Part shown: piece after piece, positions 3,663 to 11,651 of the stretch
How the letters are laid out: the number at the start of each line of letters is the position of its first letter
Position numbering within the stretch: the first letter of the stretch is position 1
Assembly (NCBI GenBank): GCA_030729385.1
Contig: JANQXM010000033.1
Span: forward strand, 1 to 64,000
DNA: 64,000 nucleotides
Source: Opitutales bacterium
Lineage (GTDB): Bacteria; Verrucomicrobiota; Verrucomicrobiia; Opitutales; Coraliomargaritaceae
Reading direction: 5' to 3'
The notes under the pieces: generated by a model
What the model saw: only the letters and a program-made list of their open reading frames with translations
The model's database searches: none
Told to the model about the DNA's origin: nothing
Position numbers and translations under genes: made by a program

Positions 3663-4142
3663 CTACTCGCCAACAGCTGTCACGATGACAGTTGCGTGAA
3701 TACCTAAGCCGCGACCCACGTCGTTCAATTGCTCACCCGTCGTTGCGGTGATGCACACGTCCGCGACTTCCAAGCCTAGCAAACCCGCAATCGATTCGCG
3801 GATCACAGGGACTTTTGGGTCGATCTTCGGACGCAAGCATTCCAGCGCAATCGAAACATGGCTCAACCGCCAGTCTCCCAGACTCTCCAGAGCCACTGCT
3901 AGATAAGCCTTACTATCGGTCACCCCAGCACGGCACATTTTGTCCGCCACAGCACCGATCACCGTCACACCGGTCACGCCGCTGATCGCGTCGGTCAATG
4001 CGTGTAAAATCACATCCGCATCACTATTACCGGAAAGTGCGGGTGCGTCGTCAAAGACGACACCACCCAGCACAAAAGGCTTCTCTGTTTCGCCTTCGAC
4101 GAAACGATGACTATCCAGCCCCAGTCCGGTTTTAACTTTCAC
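3663..4142 (-). CDS. ispF: 2-C-methyl-D-erythritol 2,4-cyclodiphosphate synthase (divergent)
   Basis: IspF converts CDP-ME 2-phosphate to the cyclic diphosphate in the MEP isoprenoid pathway and works as a trimer. The product is 159 residues, the usual length. Metal-site residues D10 and H12 (GLDSHRF) and H47 (DADVILHALTD) are present, as is the C-terminal TATTGEQL...GRGLGI motif. Two spots are unusual: the loop that normally reads DIG..FP is VIGAVADKMC, and the EKLGFTGRG motif is EQLNDVGRG. The overall match is still good, so ispF is the best call. It follows ndk by 3 bp and is probably cotranscribed with it. Confidence 0.85.
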   Translation of the reverse strand: MKVKTGLGLDSHRFVEGETEKPFVLGGVVFDDAPALSGNSDADVILHALTDAISGVTGVTVIGAVADKMCRAGVTDSKAYLAVALESLGDWRLSHVSIALECLRPKIDPKVPVIRESIAGLLGLEVADVCITATTGEQLNDVGRGLGIHATVIVTAVGE

Positions 4143-4145
4143 AGT

Positions 4146-4550
4146 CTATAGCTCAGGAAAGAAGCGCTTTTTCTCAGCAATCGCTGCCGCTGGGCTATCA
4201 GAAGCATGCACCACATTGCGCATCATATCAGTGCCTAAATCACCACGAATCGTGCCTTTAGGTGCATCTGCAGAATTTGTAGGTCCGAGTAATTCGCGCA
4301 CCTTGGCAATCACATCATCGCCAGCAAGTATCATTGGCATCACTGGACGGCTGCTCATGAAGCCTTCAATCTCAGGAAAGAAAGGTTTATCCGCAACGTG
4401 CGAGTAATGCTCACGAAGAATCGCGCTATCAAGACGCATAATCTTGGATGCAATGATCTCGAAACCAGCTTGCTCGAAACGTGAAATAACCTCACCTGCA
4501 ATGCGTTTTTCCATGCAGTCTGGTTTAAGAATAATAAGTGTTTGTTCCAT
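4146..4550 (-). CDS. ndk: Nucleoside diphosphate kinase
   Basis: Ndk passes the terminal phosphate of ATP to other nucleoside diphosphates through a phosphohistidine, balancing the NTP and dNTP pools. The 134-residue protein begins with the typical TLIILKPDCMEK and carries the active-site His115 in RNVVHASDSP, which is the NxxHGSDS motif with Ala in place of Gly. FMSSRPVMPMIL matches the family segment around the nucleotide site. The C-terminus ends AEKKRFFPEL, slightly shorter than E. coli Ndk. ispF follows after 3 bp. A terminator-like hairpin of the upstream lol operon lies just before it. Confidence 0.93.
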   Translation of the reverse strand: MEQTLIILKPDCMEKRIAGEVISRFEQAGFEIIASKIMRLDSAILREHYSHVADKPFFPEIEGFMSSRPVMPMILAGDDVIAKVRELLGPTNSADAPKGTIRGDLGTDMMRNVVHASDSPAAAIAEKKRFFPEL

Positions 4551-4646: not shown

Positions 4647-5345
4647 TCAACTAAACTGCCCCAAATGCAATTGCAATTGCCGCTGTGTTCGCGCAGCAAA
4701 GTCAGGGTTATGTGTGACTAAGACCAAGCTTTTTTCTTCTTCGGTTGCGAGAGACAATAGAAGCTCCATCACCGCCTCACCTGTCGCTTCGTCCAAATTA
4801 CCTGTCGGCTCATCAGCCAAGACCAATGGCGGATTGTTGATCAATGCGCGGGCCACCGCCACACGCTGACGCTCGCCACCTGAAAGCTTAGTCGAGCTAT
4901 GCTTCAAGCGATGCCCCATCCCAACTTTCTTCAAAAGCGCCTCTGCGCGATCCACTACAGCTCGATCGACTCGACCGGCGATACGTGCGCCGAGCAAGAC
5001 GTTCTCAAGTGCATTCAGCTCCGGCGCCAAGTAGTAAGCTTGAAATACAAAACCGATAAATTTCGCCCGCCGTGCAGCCAGCCAAGAAAGCGAACGTTTG
5101 GAGACACTTTCCCCATTCCACAACAGGTCGCCACTCTCTGCCGTCTCGAGTCCGGATAAAACATTCAACAAGGTCGACTTACCGCTACCGGACTCACCTC
5201 GAATGCTCACGGTTTCACCGCGCGAGATTTTAAAGTCGATACCGCTCAACACAGAGATTTCGCCCTCAAGCCCTCCGGGAAATGATTTCACCAGACCTCT
5301 GGACTCCAATAGTATGTCGCTTGAATTATTCACTACGCAAAGCAT
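4647..5345 (-). CDS. lolD: Lipoprotein-releasing system ATPase LolD
   Basis: LolD is the cytoplasmic ATPase of LolCDE, which extracts outer-membrane lipoproteins from the inner membrane for handover to LolA. The sequence has Walker [10 protein letters not shown], the Q-loop region [13 protein letters not shown], the signature [15 protein letters not shown], Walker [13 protein letters not shown] and the H-loop LVTHN. The start is taken at 5345 ([17 protein letters not shown]), giving 232 residues; 23 further codons are open upstream but would lie deep inside lolC. The start overlaps the end of lolC by 20 bp, so translation is probably coupled. MacB-type ATPases share these motifs, but the pairing with a LolC/E-type permease supports LolD. 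Confidence 0.88.
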
Positions 5346-6558
5346 CGGCGGGTTTAAGACGAGCAGCTCGCAAGGCGGGGACCAAACCCGCGAGCGTGGA
5401 AATAATAATAGCAAAACAAGTCACCGTCACAAAATCAGAGGCCAAATAATGCACTGGAATTTCATAGACGTCGTAGACCCCCAAGAAATTCACCTCCGAA
5501 TTGGTTAACTTCGTATAACCAACCAGAATCGGTCGACGAAAGTGTAAACAAAGCAATGCCATCCCAATGCCACAGACCGTGCCAATTGTGCCGATCACGA
5601 AACCCTGAAAACAAAAGCTATAAGCCACCTGCCTAGGTCTAGCACCCATCGCAACCAAGAGCCCGATTTCGCGTGTCTTACGCATCACCGCCATCATCAA
5701 AGCAATCGTGATTGAGAAAGAAGCCACTAGTATAATGAAAATGATGATGAACGAAATCACGCGTTTCTCCTGTTCGATTACAAAAAGAAAATCACGATTC
5801 GACTCTAACCAACTCACAGCCTCTAAGCCAGGGCGCAATACACGGGCTTCCAATTCATTCGAATACTCTAGGGCATCCACTCCGGGGCGTAGCTTAACAG
5901 ATATCCCATGCGCACCTTCATCTAGGCCATACAGTTCCTGCATCACACGCAGCGTGGAAATCATCATATTACCATCCACCTGCGGTGAACCTGTGCGAAA
6001 AAGACCGATAACGGTGAACTCACGCGGCAGCAAAACCTCATCTTTCTTCAAGCGCTCCAACATCAGCGGAGTGAAGACCTCAACCACAGAGCCAGGTCCC
6101 GCCTTCAAGGCATAAGCCAAACCTTCACCTAAAAAGACACCTTCATCATCAAAGTCGTCGAGGTTACCTAAAGTCAGGAAGCCCTCTAGATCGATCACTT
6201 CGGACTCTGCAATGGGATCAACACCACGAATCATTGGAAACTGTGGCCGGCTCTGATGCTGCAGCATCACGATCCCCTCAGCGAAAGGTGCCGCGGCAAC
6301 AACCATGTCTTCCTCCCGCAATTGCTCGATATAGGTCTCCCAATCGTAAACGACCTCATTCGAGCGTATCCGTATATCGCCCTGAGTTTCCACCAATCGC
6401 TGACGAATGCCTTCACCGAAACCATTCATCACACTCTGCACAATAATCAGCACGCAGACGCCCAACATCACCCCCATGATCGACATGAGAGAGAAGAAGG
6501 AAAAGAAACGCCCAGAAGGAAACAACTGCTTCAAGGCATGGTAAAGATACCAAGGCAT
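5326..6558 (-). CDS. lolC: Lipoprotein-releasing system permease LolC/LolE family
   Basis: The 410-residue permease has the LolC/E plan: one N-terminal membrane helix (about residues 19-45, with [15 protein letters not shown]), a large MacB-like periplasmic domain, then three helices (about 270-300, 315-345, 365-395) in an FtsX fold. It includes the [13 protein letters not shown] segment that couples FtsX permeases to their ATPase, and ends [17 protein letters not shown]. Only one permease gene is present, so the transporter is probably a homodimer as in organisms with a single LolF-type protein. The start is the ATG at 6558, preceded by GGGAGAGAAG; an in-frame ATG 32 codons upstream adds non-homologous residues. 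It overlaps lolD. Confidence 0.88.
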
Positions 6559-6616
6559 ACACTCTTCTCTCCCATCCTCCGTAGAAGGAAAAGAGAAAAA
6601 TGTAGACTCGCCCGAA

Positions 6617-9190
6617 CTAAGTTTCAGATGACACCTCATAAGGCGACCGCGCACGGTGCCCTCGAAGCACTGAAACGATCTCTCTCACGGTCGGCACAGA
6701 GGCACCCTTCGCACGATTTGCTGCACCGATATGGAATGCCAATGCCCACTGCGCACACAAGACCCGCCATGCCTGCAGGATGCTGTTCTTGGGATCATAA
6801 ATATCCGTCGATTCCGAAGAAACTCCGTTTAACTCCAACACCCGGATGCCCTCGCCCTCAGCCATCATCTCTCCACTCGGCACACGTAAATCAAATCGCC
6901 CGAAATAAAAGCCCTCATACGTCGACAGCAACTCATCCAACTTAAGACGCAGCGCTTCACTTTTGTAACGATTGCCATCAAGGAAGATAGCACCTCGGCA
7001 ATGCGTGCCCAGTTCGACTAACTGTATGTGCGCACCATCCTCAGGCACTTCACCCAGTCGAGCCCCGTTCACTTTTAAATAATGCTTCGCCAAAGCCACC
7101 GCCCTTGCGTCATCCAAGATCAAGCGTTCTACCGTGCGCACACCGTCTCCGATCAACTCGGGCAAACGCTTCTCTGTGATTGAGAACAACTGACTCTCCT
7201 CGCAGGGTTCTCTTATATAAAAGACCCCAAACTCCACCCCGGAGATAAAGCGCTGAGCGATCACCAACTCCGTATTTTCACGCAAATACAACTCCGCTTG
7301 GGTCTGATCATGGATCACAGCCACACCCTCACCTCGTTGACCGATATTGGGCTTCAAAACCAGAGGCCAGGTGAGCGCCTGCGCCTCTTGGAAATCTGAC
7401 AACGCCCGCAGCCGATCCCCTAAAGCATCCGAAGGCTGGATACACACCCAATCCGCAACACAATCAGCATTCGGATTGAGCGCAGCGAGGATTTCGCTCT
7501 TCGACTCCAAGGCCAAGCCGCTGGCAGGATACATACCTGGGTTACACGCCGCCCATACTGTCGCGCTGCGATAACGAACCGCCAACCAACAACCATAGAA
7601 AAACACCGGTAAATACACGGGCAACGCTGGCCAAAACTCCCACTGAGTTAAACGAACCCAACGACCGCGAATTGAGCGCCTGCCTCGATAAGTCATCGAC
7701 TGCGTGAGCAAATGCAGCACGACATACAAGCACACCAATCCGAGTGCGATTAAGGGCAACACAGCCACCCCAGATCGCTCCCACCACTGCATTAATGGTT
7801 GCCCCGCCAAATAAGCGACGGATACCAAAATCGGCGTCCACACTGCTGCGGCAACCGCCAACCATAAGCAAAAGCGTGGAAACGGCAGCTTCATGACCCC
7901 CGCGGTGATATAAGCAATCACACGACTTCCCGGAATAAAACGCGTCAGAAAAACAACCTTAAAGCCGCTTCGTTCATAGCCACTACGCAAACGAGTGAAC
8001 GAACTCCCCTCACTGGCCTTAGCGACAAAACTTAAACGCAAAGCACGACCACCCAAAATACGCCCAATCAAATACAAACCTAGGTCGCTTACAAAGATCC
8101 CCAAGAAACAACCGATGATCGCAGCAGGCAATGTGACAGCCCCACTCGCCGCCAAGATACCTCCAGCGATGCACGCTAAATCTTCTGAAAAGAAGACAAA
8201 TACGAATAGCAAAGTAGCCAGCATAGCATCCTGAAAAAACGATGGCTTTTCTGGCAGTTGGATGCTCGCCGCAGGTTGATCACCTCGGCGAAAGATTTCC
8301 AACATTGAGCCCCTGGCTTCAACCTTTTCAATAAACTGATTGAGCGCATCGGCATACAACTCCGTATCGCTGAACAATCCCAAATGCCCCCCGGGCAGTT
8401 CATAGAAATCCGCCTGAGGCAATAACATCGCATGTGCTTGAGCCGCCGCGAATGGCACCAAGCGATCATCGACCGCATGCAATATCAAAGCTGGGCTATC
8501 CAATTGCCTCAAAATGCTTTCATTCCGCCGCAGGTCGGTGTCCGCAAAGTTCTGCGCGGTGGCGGGACCAAACATCGGCGCGTCAAAATATCCGAAATGC
8601 GGCGTCAACCAACGCAACGACCAGAGAAAACCGCGATAGGCGGTATAGATCGGTTGGTTCCATTCATAACGCCCTAGTAGTTCATGCTCCTGGAGTCCGA
8701 CACCTGCGATGAAAGTCACACTAGCCATCCGCAATGGGGCACTATTGGTCAGCTCCAAGGCAACTGCACTACCCTGAGAATAACCGACTACATGGACCTG
8801 ATCGAGCGCCATCGCATCCATCCAGTCGAGCAATACTGCGACTTGATTCTCGGCCGAGTAACGCAACAAGTTTCGCTCAGTAAAGCCCAGACCGGGCAAA
8901 TCCGGAATCAAAATACGTCGCTCTGCACCAAGCGCTTTTGCCAACGGCAGCATGGCTCGACCAGCCATGGGGTTACCGTGCAACAACAGTATTGGCACCC
9001 CAGGTTTTTGTGGGTTCAAATCACGATAAGCCAAGCGCACACGACCACTGCTCGCCACCGAGGGTGCCACCTCGGCAACATAAACAAGTTGATCCACCTG
9101 CGGCGGAGACACCAGTCCACGAAACACTCGATATCCTGTAGATAGCACTAAGGCTAGTATCCATAATATGATAACGAATCTTAAACGCAT
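6617..9190 (-). CDS. Three-domain fusion: alpha/beta hydrolase, DedA-type membrane domain, ATP-grasp domain
   Basis: This 857-residue protein joins three modules. Residues 1-20 form a membrane anchor. Residues about 65-290 are an alpha/beta hydrolase with oxyanion motif LLHGNP, nucleophile S138 in GYSQG, acid D241/D242 in HAVDDRLVP and H269 in GGHLGL. Residues about 320-500 are a DedA/VTT (SNARE-associated) domain with several helices and the signature [16 protein letters not shown] near 417-432. Residues about 600-820 resemble an ATP-grasp ligase: [29 protein letters not shown], then FGRFDLRV and [10 protein letters not shown] as metal-binding segments. Each family is well known alone; the combination suggests one envelope-lipid or wall-precursor function, but the substrate is unknown. 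It lies between the NRDE gene and lolC in a minus-strand run. Confidence 0.85.
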
Positions 9191-9227: not shown

Positions 9228-9953
9228 TTATAAAAGTGGTATCCGAAACGCTTCGGCCTCGCTCAACACTGGTGGATTGCCTCGCACAGTTTGAAACCAC
9301 ATATGTGCATTATTCGGTCCGACAACAATTTCTGTAATCGAATCGGTCGCAGCGTCTTCACGCACCATCACTGGACCGAGTGCGGGATCATCCAAGTTAA
9401 ATGAACCATGTTTTGCCTTCAACGCAGTTCGTTCCCGATTTTGTCCAGCTAACAAATCAAAGCGAAACGCCTCACAATCTTCCCGCCGGAAAGAAGAAGT
9501 AGTCAGCACGTGCAAGCCTCCCTCACCAGTCAAAGAAAGCTCAGTCAGTGACTCGCCATCCCACGCACGGGCGAGTGGCCCATCTTCACGACCGAATGCG
9601 AATAAGAGAAAACCGGGATAAATAGATGCATCTAAAGCACTCATCACCTCCATACAATCAGCTGCCGTCTCACAGCGATCGAGCAATTCCAAAACCAGTT
9701 TACCGCGGCTACGTTGCCCCGGTTGAGCCTCCTGAAAAAAAGGATAATTATTTAAGACCGCGACAATCAAGCCGCACTCATTCACCCCCACCCATGTGCC
9801 TCCTGCATCCGGATCACGCGGCGTTAAGATCGATCGACCGGAATCGCCTTCGATCACACGAGGCACCTCGCCATGCGAACGCGTCCGCTTCTCATCGCGA
9901 TTAAATACGATGCCGCGCTCGGTCTCGACTGCCCACCAACTAAGCGTGCACAT
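9228..9953 (-). CDS. NRDE family protein (TANGO2-like)
   Basis: The 241-residue protein opens MCTLSWWAV and has the diagnostic NRDE motif in VFNRDEKRTR, followed by DPDAGGTWVGVNECG, which together define the NRDE/TANGO2 family. Cys2 sits where N-terminal nucleophile enzymes have their catalytic residue, although an enzymatic activity is not settled for this family. Human TANGO2 has been tied to lipid and heme handling, so a link with the lipid genes upstream is possible but is inference. The start is the ATG at 9953, 6 bp after the stop of the DinB-like gene, suggesting cotranscription. Confidence 0.85.
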   Translation of the reverse strand: MCTLSWWAVETERGIVFNRDEKRTRSHGEVPRVIEGDSGRSILTPRDPDAGGTWVGVNECGLIVAVLNNYPFFQEAQPGQRSRGKLVLELLDRCETAADCMEVMSALDASIYPGFLLFAFGREDGPLARAWDGESLTELSLTGEGGLHVLTTSSFRREDCEAFRFDLLAGQNRERTALKAKHGSFNLDDPALGPVMVREDAATDSITEIVVGPNNAHMWFQTVRGNPPVLSEAEAFRIPLL

Positions 9954-9959
9954 AACCAG

Positions 9960-10487
9960 TTATGAAGACGCGGGGTACTTACCTTGCTCATAGCGCTGCG
10001 TCGAAGGCGCCACTCCAAAACTCGTAGGCAAAGCAACGCCACGTCCATGCGCAATCATAGCAATCAAGGCGTTATGATGCACCGTGTGGCCAAGTAAAAA
10101 TTGCAACTCACGCCCGAGCGAACTGGGCAGCCAATCTCGGTGTAGAACCCCTGCTTCACTTTCTTCGCGCACTTCAAGCGTGATTTCTTCATGCGACCGC
10201 AAAGCATCCAATTGAAGCATATACTTTCGTATCAATTCTGCAGCAACTTCTCGCGATTCCTCGATCATCGTGTTTCGCTCACGGCATTCGTAGTCAATAC
10301 GCCGCACATCTAAACCATCGAAGAACGCTGTGAAATGCCCAATATTATGGCGTAAATGCATGCCTACACTACTGGTGTAAAATCCGTCCGTCGGGGCGCG
10401 GTAATATTCAGCTGAAAGCACCGCCAGCAAGTCGAGCTCCTGCTCTAAGGCCGAATGAACTGCGTCTATTATTGAATCAAATCTCAT
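9960..10487 (-). CDS. DinB-like four-helix-bundle protein
   Basis: The 175-residue protein is almost all helical. It has histidines spaced as in the DinB/YfiT metal-binding superfamily: MHLRHNIGHF near residues 43-52 and LLGHTVHHNALI near 131-142. Members are metal-dependent thiol transferases or uncharacterised damage-induced proteins. No substrate can be named. The gene sits between pgpA (48 bp upstream) and the NRDE gene (6 bp downstream) and is probably part of the same transcript. No SOS-like box is seen in front of it, so DinB here means fold only. Confidence 0.7.
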   Translation of the reverse strand: MRFDSIIDAVHSALEQELDLLAVLSAEYYRAPTDGFYTSSVGMHLRHNIGHFTAFFDGLDVRRIDYECRERNTMIEESREVAAELIRKYMLQLDALRSHEEITLEVREESEAGVLHRDWLPSSLGRELQFLLGHTVHHNALIAMIAHGRGVALPTSFGVAPSTQRYEQGKYPASS

Positions 10488-10534: not shown

Positions 10535-11065
10535 TTAAAAGATAAAATGCAAAATCAGATGCAGACAGACACAGGAAACGACGCCTGCCGCCAAGTCATC
10601 CACCACGCAACCTAAGCCTCCGGGCAAATTCTGTAGTTTCGAAATCCCAAAAGGTTTAAAAATATCAAATATTCGAAACAGCGCAAAACCACCGAGCAAC
10701 ACAGGCCAACCACCATGTGTGGCAATCAGACCATTGTGCCCGCCCATACCAAAGAAAACCAGCGGCACGGCGATGAACTCATCCAGAATAATCATGCCCG
10801 GGTCACGCATTTGCAGACGACGCTCAGCTGCATCGCAAATACCGATCGCCAGATAAGTCAACAAAGCCGCCCACAAGACAAAGCCCAAAAACGAACTATT
10901 ATAGAACAAGACTCCATAAAGCCCGATACCAGCCACGCTGCCGACAGTGCCAGGTCCTTTTTTGACCAAACCAAGTGGTCCTAATGTCGCCAAGCCGACG
11001 ACCACGGACGTCGAGAGCAACGACGTCCAAGGGAAGTAACGCTGAAAACTATTCGGATTTACCAT
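10535..11065 (-). CDS. pgpA: Phosphatidylglycerophosphatase A
   Basis: PgpA removes the phosphate from phosphatidylglycerophosphate to give phosphatidylglycerol. The 176-residue membrane protein shows the family pattern: [14 protein letters not shown] near the N-terminus, [17 protein letters not shown] in the middle, [16 protein letters not shown], and [14 protein letters not shown] near the C-terminus, with the acidic residues expected at the active site. About four hydrophobic stretches are present. It overlaps the end of pgsA by 17 bp, so the two consecutive steps of phosphatidylglycerol synthesis are translationally linked. Confidence 0.88.
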
Positions 11066-11651
11066 CGTTTTCTCCTGTAAAAATAGACCAATACTTCACC
11101 ATATACATCGTGCCCGAAGATACCGTCAGCAAGGTGGCCACGACGAAAAAGCCGAGTCCGCCCCAATGCAAGGTGTCGCCTACGACAGCTGGCACCAATT
11201 CGGGGAAGTCTTTACGCACCGCGATCGCCATGAGTAATAGAATCGCCGAAACCATTTGCGAGACGGTCTTGTGCTTCCCGGATTTTTCAGCAGCCAAAAC
11301 CACACCAGAGCTAGCCGCCACTAAACGAAGCCCCGTGATTAAAAATTCACGACTAAGAATCAGTAGAAGAAGAAATAGCGACCAAAGGCCTGGCAATACA
11401 CCCATCACCAAAAGTGCAATAAACAGACCGACCATGAATACCTTATCGGTGAGCGCATCCATCAGTTTGCCGAAATTCGAGACGAGGCCCTGCTTCCGCG
11501 CGTAATAGCCGTCTGCCCAATCCGTCAACGCACCGATGATAAAGAGTATAAAAGCAATCGTGCTAGCTCCTGTGAACTGAGCATGCAAAAAGGCAACAAC
11601 CCCGAAAAGTATCGGGATACGGGAGAGTGTGAGAAGATTTGGTAGATTCAC
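11049..11651 (-). CDS. pgsA: CDP-diacylglycerol--glycerol-3-phosphate 3-phosphatidyltransferase
   Basis: PgsA makes phosphatidylglycerophosphate from CDP-diacylglycerol and glycerol 3-phosphate in the inner membrane. The CDP-alcohol phosphotransferase motif D..DG..AR........G...D...D is visible from [12 protein letters not shown] to [10 protein letters not shown] (about residues 43-69). The 200-residue length and about six hydrophobic stretches fit. The N-terminus [14 protein letters not shown] is the family standard, which fixes the start at 11651. It is the first gene of a minus-strand run continuing with pgpA. Confidence 0.92.

Follow-up and report, generated by a model that had tools for sequence, protein, structure and literature searches.

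Proteins with a VTT domain move or scramble lipids, and ATP-grasp enzymes of the Ddl/GshB/cyanophycin group convert a carboxylate into an acyl phosphate that is passed on to an amine. PlaF and ABHD6 have a layout in which an N-terminal membrane helix is followed by a lipase-like alpha/beta hydrolase. The OlsF homologues of Vibrio cholerae have been shown to make ornithine lipid, and one of them, VCA0646, stands at the end of the putative operon VCA0649-VCA0646, which comprises four genes (PMC12186959). For human TANGO2, modelling has suggested an Ntn hydrolase whose possible target is a C-N bond of some membrane component (PMC7612213). TANGO2 deficiency in humans is tied to lipid imbalance, and the role of the protein in heme handling is disputed (PMC11179719). 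The bacterial TANGO2 homologue HtpA (SO0126) from Shewanella has been reported as a heme-trafficking protein, the only neighbour described for it being the independently transcribed metal-transporter gene SO0127 (PMC10470608). Here we describe a fusion protein in which a hydrolase, a VTT domain and an ATP-grasp domain are found in one chain. Among the forms of a widespread gene module, apparently undescribed so far and connected with aminolipid synthesis and a TANGO2-family protein, it is the most compact; no description of the fusion or of the gene set was found in the open-access literature.

Architecture of the fusion protein

The window, by which we mean the whole analysed stretch of 64,000 nucleotides, comes from a draft genome (2.59 Mb) of an Opitutales bacterium. 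The fusion frame runs uninterrupted from ATG to stop over exactly the range given in Table 1. The preliminary description had claimed a single uninterrupted frame of 857 residues with three domains; the frame was borne out, although on the minus strand, which that description omits, and the domains were recovered by Pfam (hydrolase and VTT) and by structure (ATP-grasp). A missed stop between the domains, which had been considered as an objection, does not occur, as the same frame is present in other full-length relatives and in the sister MAG Opitutales bacterium HE327_NSB101 (68% identical across the whole protein and the sole match in the genome-contig search). An assembly or frame artefact is ruled out by 25 full-length copies including that of the window. 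The full-length AlphaFold2 model (pLDDT 90.3, pTM 0.71) has one low-confidence linker, residues 296–311, separating hydrolase and VTT domain. A Foldseek search of the PDB with this model listed alpha/beta hydrolases only, and the ATP-grasp part was therefore modelled separately.

Table 1: Fusion protein, its domains and the neighbouring genes in the window.
Feature	Position	Strand	Evidence
857-aa fusion protein: N-terminal TM helix, alpha/beta hydrolase, VTT/DedA, membrane-associated ATP-grasp	6617..9190	(-)	
N-terminal transmembrane helix, residues 1-24	9119..9190	(-)	hydropathy maximum 2.11; helix 2-24 in model
Alpha/beta hydrolase domain, residues 35-292, Ser138/Asp242/His269	8315..9088	(-)	Pfam, alignment, model, Foldseek
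VTT/DedA membrane domain, residues 318-498, RFIPGSR at 417-423	7697..8239	(-)	Pfam VTT 6e-15
ATP-grasp domain, residues 500-857, membrane-associating WEFWP...helix at start	6620..7693	(-)	AF2 model, Foldseek, invariant residues
TANGO2/NRDE family protein, 241 aa, upstream partner	9228..9953	(-)	Pfam PF05742 1.2e-12
DinB-like protein, 175 aa, upstream partner	9960..10487	(-)	weak Pfam DinB; alignment
pgpA, phosphatidylglycerophosphatase A, neighbour in this genus only	10535..11065	(-)	
pgsA, CDP-diacylglycerol--glycerol-3-phosphate 3-phosphatidyltransferase, neighbour in this genus only	11049..11651	(-)	
LolC/E-like lipoprotein-releasing permease, ORF overlapping the 3' end of the fusion gene	5326..6654	(-)	
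LolD-like ATPase	4647..5414	(-)	

The first domain belongs to the alpha/beta hydrolases by its Pfam match (Abhydrolase_1/6 at residues 66–282, E 1e-18; Abhydrolase_1 68.3 bits versus a cut-off of 25.8) and by its Ser-Asp-His triad, which the alignment places where the preliminary description had read it. Its Foldseek neighbours are esterases, the membrane phospholipase A PlaF (6i8w) and ABHD6. Among 23 aligned full-length relatives the triad is kept in 14 and lost in nine, eight having glycine for the serine and one more being without the rest of the triad. The eight glycine variants (loci L066, L067, L069, L070, L080, L071, L072 and L079) have kept VTT and ATP-grasp, and their hydrolase is, as read from the alignment, a fused pseudoenzyme domain. 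The hydrolase is not a fixed part of the architecture, since many relatives do without it and others have a catalytically degraded one, and a TANGO2 gene adjoins 13 of the 14 intact copies versus one of the nine degraded ones (Fisher p 1.6e-4, kinship ignored). ATP-grasp and VTT domain therefore form the core and the hydrolase is a removable activity, perhaps one coupled to TANGO2.

The central domain is a member of the DedA/VTT family: Pfam VTT matches residues 345–460 (56.2 bits versus a cut-off of 33.9, E 6e-15), the DedA signature named in the preliminary description was confirmed, and the motif RFxPGxR is found in nearly all aligned relatives. The NCBIfam model for the undecaprenyl-phosphate transporter UptA matches weakly at residues 340–496 (7.6e-11), its 42.4 bits being far under the equivalog cut-off of 250.

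For the C-terminal part none of the Pfam ATP-grasp models passed its own cut-off (ATP-grasp_3 reached 20.2 versus 23.2 bits), and NCBIfam gave weak cyanophycin-synthetase/Ddl matches only. The AlphaFold2 model of residues 500–857 (pLDDT 94.1, pTM 0.91) nevertheless has the ATP-grasp fold, the presence of which the preliminary description had left to a structure model. Its best PDB match by Foldseek is cyanophycin synthetase (7wae, E 5.8e-10), with bifunctional glutathione synthetase and D-Ala:D-Ala ligases as further matches (probability 1.00), and the family profile recovers cyanophycin synthetase, glutathione synthetase and D-Ala:D-Ala ligase by sequence as well. K613, G620, Q646, E653, K674 and D767 are identical in all 36 aligned sequences and E786 is identical in 33 of them; the motifs noticed before are thus present, with the residues expected of an active enzyme invariant or nearly so. 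The fold, the ATP-binding lysine pair, the glycine-rich loop and the metal-binding Asp/Glu/Asn place the domain in the ATP-grasp superfamily. It does not belong to the D-Ala:D-Ala ligases as defined by Dala_Dala_lig_C, which gave no match in the fusion at E 0.001 or in the C-terminal part at E 1 and stayed below its cut-off in the Vibrio relative (16.3 versus 24 bits). A chance resemblance or misreading of the ATP-grasp part is ruled out by the fold and the invariant residues, and a phage origin by the lack of any tblastn match of this part in 50,697 phage records.

The stretch preceding the ATP-grasp domain (residues 499–522) contains six Arg/Lys and one acid, and the short hydrophobic helix 522–539 would be in-plane or re-entrant, because the ATP-grasp domain must face the cytoplasm. 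The N-terminal helix has a basic start (MRLRF), and both basic elements appear compatible with a hydrolase outside and a ligase inside.

Directly upstream of the fusion gene the window encodes a TANGO2/NRDE protein and a DinB-like protein. The former is a family member by its PF05742 score (48.9 versus 22.6 bits), its N-terminal cysteine and its NRDE motif; Cys2 and the NRDE motif are conserved across the family alignment, in which column 113 is a proline column and not the heme-binding tyrosine position, and a profile of bacterial TANGO2 reaches the solved human TANGO2 structures (6.7e-7). The DinB-like protein stays below the Pfam DinB/DinB_2 cut-off (16.1 versus 23 bits in the window, 19.5 in Vibrio), and the invariant histidines of its family (H44, H47, H134, H137 and H138) together with RefSeq names in Salinivibrio suggest a distant DinB member. 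The preliminary description had located the gene among phosphatidylglycerol and lipoprotein genes. This is accurate for pgsA/pgpA upstream and the LolC/E-like and LolD-like genes downstream, but it is weak evidence, as this gene order was seen in this genus only (the window and L075), and the relevance of these genes was downgraded. Beyond lolD, ndk and a YgbB (IspF-like) gene are found (3666–4550, minus strand), so the fusion sits within an ordinary housekeeping run in this genus. The informative neighbours are the DinB-like and TANGO2 genes and, in relatives, acyltransferases of the ornithine-lipid type. In the window genome the OlsF-like gene is not adjacent to the fusion but sits on a different contig, whose end truncates it.

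Distribution and gene neighbourhood

A search with the full protein gave matches at 1e-30 in 38 of 388 Verrucomicrobiota genomes, and the ATP-grasp profile matched in 40 of the 388. The proteins recovered around the matches are 25 long fusions (window included), 11 proteins with VTT and ATP-grasp and four near ATP-grasp size. Groups outside the Verrucomicrobiota were sampled through plasmid and chromid records only. Two-domain and single-domain forms occur in Proteobacteria as well. In these records VTT and ATP-grasp are fused in Azospirillum and encoded side by side in Vibrio, Photobacterium and Salinivibrio, and in Paracoccus all three parts, ATP-grasp, hydrolase and VTT, come from separate neighbouring genes; a Paracoccus-like hydrolase is located beyond ATP-grasp and OlsF in G385. 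The maximum-likelihood tree of the ATP-grasp domain contains at least four changes between the long fusion and other forms on well-supported branches. The same parts have therefore been joined or separated repeatedly, which is evidence that they work together. Two ATP-grasp relatives, G269:C1:1518207-1519215 and G356:C2:36176-36535, show several stops or frame changes and are likely decaying copies.

We mapped the neighbourhood of 41 verrucomicrobial loci by tblastn, the loci being chosen only by their match to the fusion or the ATP-grasp domain. DinB and TANGO2 genes were found in 25 loci each, OlsB/OlsF in nine, YHS in seven, and PlsC/OlsA and DoxX-like genes in four each; ten loci have the long fusion only, without any partner. 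The gene order DinB–TANGO2–fusion is repeated in many genera. TANGO2 and the ATP-grasp family (28 and 40 carriers) occur together in 21 of 388 genomes (Fisher p 4e-18, phylogeny ignored), and the nine OlsB/OlsF loci, which come from several Verrucomicrobiota families, compare with a chance expectation of 0.14 (binomial p ~2e-14, phylogeny ignored); these p values for co-occurrence and linkage are inflated by phylogenetic non-independence. PF13444 is found in 217 of 388 genomes of the phylum, so its mere presence is weak and its proximity is the evidence.

Loci without the hydrolase gain OlsB or OlsF, an OlsA-type PlsC, YHS-domain and DoxX/MauE-like genes. All nine OlsB/OlsF loci have the two-domain or stand-alone forms and hydrolase-fused loci never have OlsB/OlsF adjacent, so for the three-domain fusion the link rests on the shared DinB/TANGO2 partners and on the tree. 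In the latter the window groups (97/90) with L051, L052, L053 and L060, which all adjoin TANGO2, YHS and DoxX genes, and L051, L053 and L060 also adjoin OlsB/F and PlsC/OlsA.

Outside the phylum, Vibrio sp. THAF64 and Photobacterium show the same arrangement. In Vibrio sp. THAF64 genes for VTT, ATP-grasp, DinB, TANGO2, YHS, MauE/DoxX and an OlsF-like protein are contiguous on one strand, Photobacterium has the same gene order, Salinivibrio carries VTT, ATP-grasp, 'DinB family' and 'NRDE family' genes, and Variovorax has ATP-grasp with an OlsB-like gene. The OlsF-like partners match at E 4e-128 and 1.2e-120 (1.5e-118 for the OlsF-like gene of G000), and the OlsB and OlsA partners at 9.8e-40 and 1.6e-43. 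With 397–429 bits the full-length OlsF-like matches remain under the NCBIfam equivalog cut-off of 620, as OlsB/OlsF do in general under theirs; by these scores, which do not fix the amino acid specificity, they are of the same family as OlsF. Two acyltransferase types, the one-gene OlsF and the two-gene OlsB/OlsA, take the same position, so the link is to the pathway and not to one gene, and the pathway product would be what the loci share.

The YHS gene of the Vibrio cluster (L082:10941-11417 and relatives) belongs to the 'YHS domain-containing (seleno)protein' subfamily. A further, unannotated protein family, c13, of 235–269 aa with the conserved 'VDSKC...PG.LK.HRACAIRCISGG', recurs near the module (L055:3980-4789, L056:14176-14931 and L074:3871-4578), and two members that were scanned gave no Pfam match at E 0.01.

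A possible role in aminolipid tailoring

We tentatively propose, with nearly an even chance of being right, that an aminolipid-tailoring module is built around the fusion. Given that the cluster contains an aminolipid synthase and that the partner is embedded in the membrane, an aminolipid whose head-group carboxylate or amine is extended would be the simplest substrate. An OlsF- or OlsB/OlsA-type acyltransferase would make an acyloxyacyl amino-acid lipid, and at the cytoplasmic face the ATP-grasp domain would activate a carboxylate as acyl phosphate and join it to an amine, giving an additional amide bond on the aminolipid; the head group might, for example, gain a second amino acid or an amine. 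The VTT domain would then scramble or flip the product. The hydrolase, set outside by the N-terminal membrane helix, may cleave an ester of the lipid, and inside the TANGO2-type Ntn protein may use Cys2 as its nucleophile to break a C-N bond in this class of lipid, both serving its trimming or recycling. A metal-dependent role as a further partner is probable for the DinB-like protein. The proposal of TANGO2 as a C-N hydrolase (PMC7612213) agrees with a gene pair in which one enzyme forms and the other cuts an amide in the same lipid class. YHS and DoxX point to some metal or redox component for which the aminolipid model does not account. The preliminary description had spoken of a 'transmembrane lipid- or cell-wall-linked conjugation machine', of which the lipid-linked part comes close to our reading, for a different reason (the DinB, TANGO2 and Ols neighbours), and the cell-wall part is not upheld, as there is no peptidoglycan gene among the annotated neighbour families.

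Alternatively, the ATP-grasp domain might make N-acyl amino acids directly, by turning a (hydroxy) fatty acid into an acyl phosphate and transferring it to an amino acid, with VTT as exporter and the hydrolase freeing the fatty acid from membrane lipids. Activation of fatty acids as acyl phosphates has been discussed for Legionella acyl histidines and ATP-grasp enzymes (PMC11631085), and the ATP-grasp fold and a lipase-like hydrolase near PlaF/ABHD6, fused in cis, would suit this route. We consider it unlikely, however, since an OlsB/OlsF N-acyltransferase already adjoins in nine loci and would make the step redundant, and the nearest solved ATP-grasp structures are amino-acid and peptide ligases.

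The Ddl structures among the Foldseek matches, relatives annotated as 'D-alanine--D-alanine ligase' and the weak UptA match would agree with a cell-envelope peptide ligase of the Ddl kind acting on a peptidoglycan- or undecaprenyl-linked precursor, the VTT domain being an UptA-like undecaprenyl-phosphate flippase. Such a role is very improbable, as the Dala_Dala_lig_C and UptA scores fall short of their cut-offs and the recurrent neighbours are lipid, TANGO2, DinB, YHS and DoxX genes.

Metal binding is common for DinB-like histidines and YHS domains, and with YHS in seven loci one could think of a heme- or metal-handling module in which TANGO2 traffics heme, YHS, DoxX and DinB are redox or metal partners and the fusion modifies or moves a tetrapyrrole. 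The report on HtpA (PMC10470608) favours this, but the heme role of TANGO2 is itself disputed (PMC11179719). The OlsB/OlsF/OlsA neighbours point to lipids and the recurrent families showed no gene for heme synthesis or cytochrome maturation, which leaves this explanation with a slim chance.

We give equally little credence to a role in the synthesis or breakdown of aminoacylated phosphatidylglycerol, in which the fusion would parallel MprF and an aminoacyl-PG hydrolase, although a flippase and a synthase in one chain resemble the logic of MprF and pgsA and pgpA, which would then be the relevant context, lie directly upstream in the window and the sister genome. Both genes are adjacent in this genus only, and the known aminoacyl phospholipids are made from aminoacyl-tRNA and not by ATP-grasp enzymes (PMC11631085).

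Extending the proposed aminolipid tailoring further, it is conceivable, though rather doubtful, that one lipid-moving ligase-hydrolase and a TANGO2-type amidase build and recycle an undescribed class of membrane lipids, namely aminolipids with an ATP-grasp-made amide. If so, TANGO2, the function of which is disputed in human disease, would gain a chemical role as hydrolase of amide-linked membrane lipids. If the tailoring reading itself is right, it would add a ligase step to aminolipid biosynthesis and point to a candidate substrate of DedA/VTT proteins beyond undecaprenyl phosphate. The cluster would then also be a tractable bacterial system for the function of the TANGO2 family, that is, an Ntn amidase acting on membrane lipids versus a heme carrier.

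Comparison with known systems

The fusion shares the ATP-grasp fold and catalytic residues with cyanophycin synthetase, glutathione synthetase and D-Ala:D-Ala ligase, but it is distant from them (~16% identity, TM-score 0.35–0.54), has no Mur-ligase or GshA partner, starts with its own membrane-associating WEFWP helix and is tied to a VTT domain. With the DedA/VTT family including UptA it has the VTT domain and RFIPGSR in common; it differs in being joined to a hydrolase and a ligase, in its UptA score and in the SEDL(T/A)C of the N-terminal part of its VTT domain. Its own N-terminal part has the same layout as PlaF (6i8w) and human ABHD6, except that the chain goes on into VTT and ATP-grasp. 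The TANGO2 protein of the window has Cys2 and the NRDE motif in common with human TANGO2 and Shewanella HtpA, and unlike HtpA it shares a conserved gene cluster with a VTT-ligase. Finally, the acyltransferase families that adjoin the ATP-grasp gene are the same as those of the OlsF and OlsB/OlsA loci for ornithine, glycine and glutamine lipids, whereas these known pathways consist of two acyltransferase steps, with no ATP-grasp ligase, VTT, TANGO2 or DinB protein found described for them (PMC11631085, PMC12186959).
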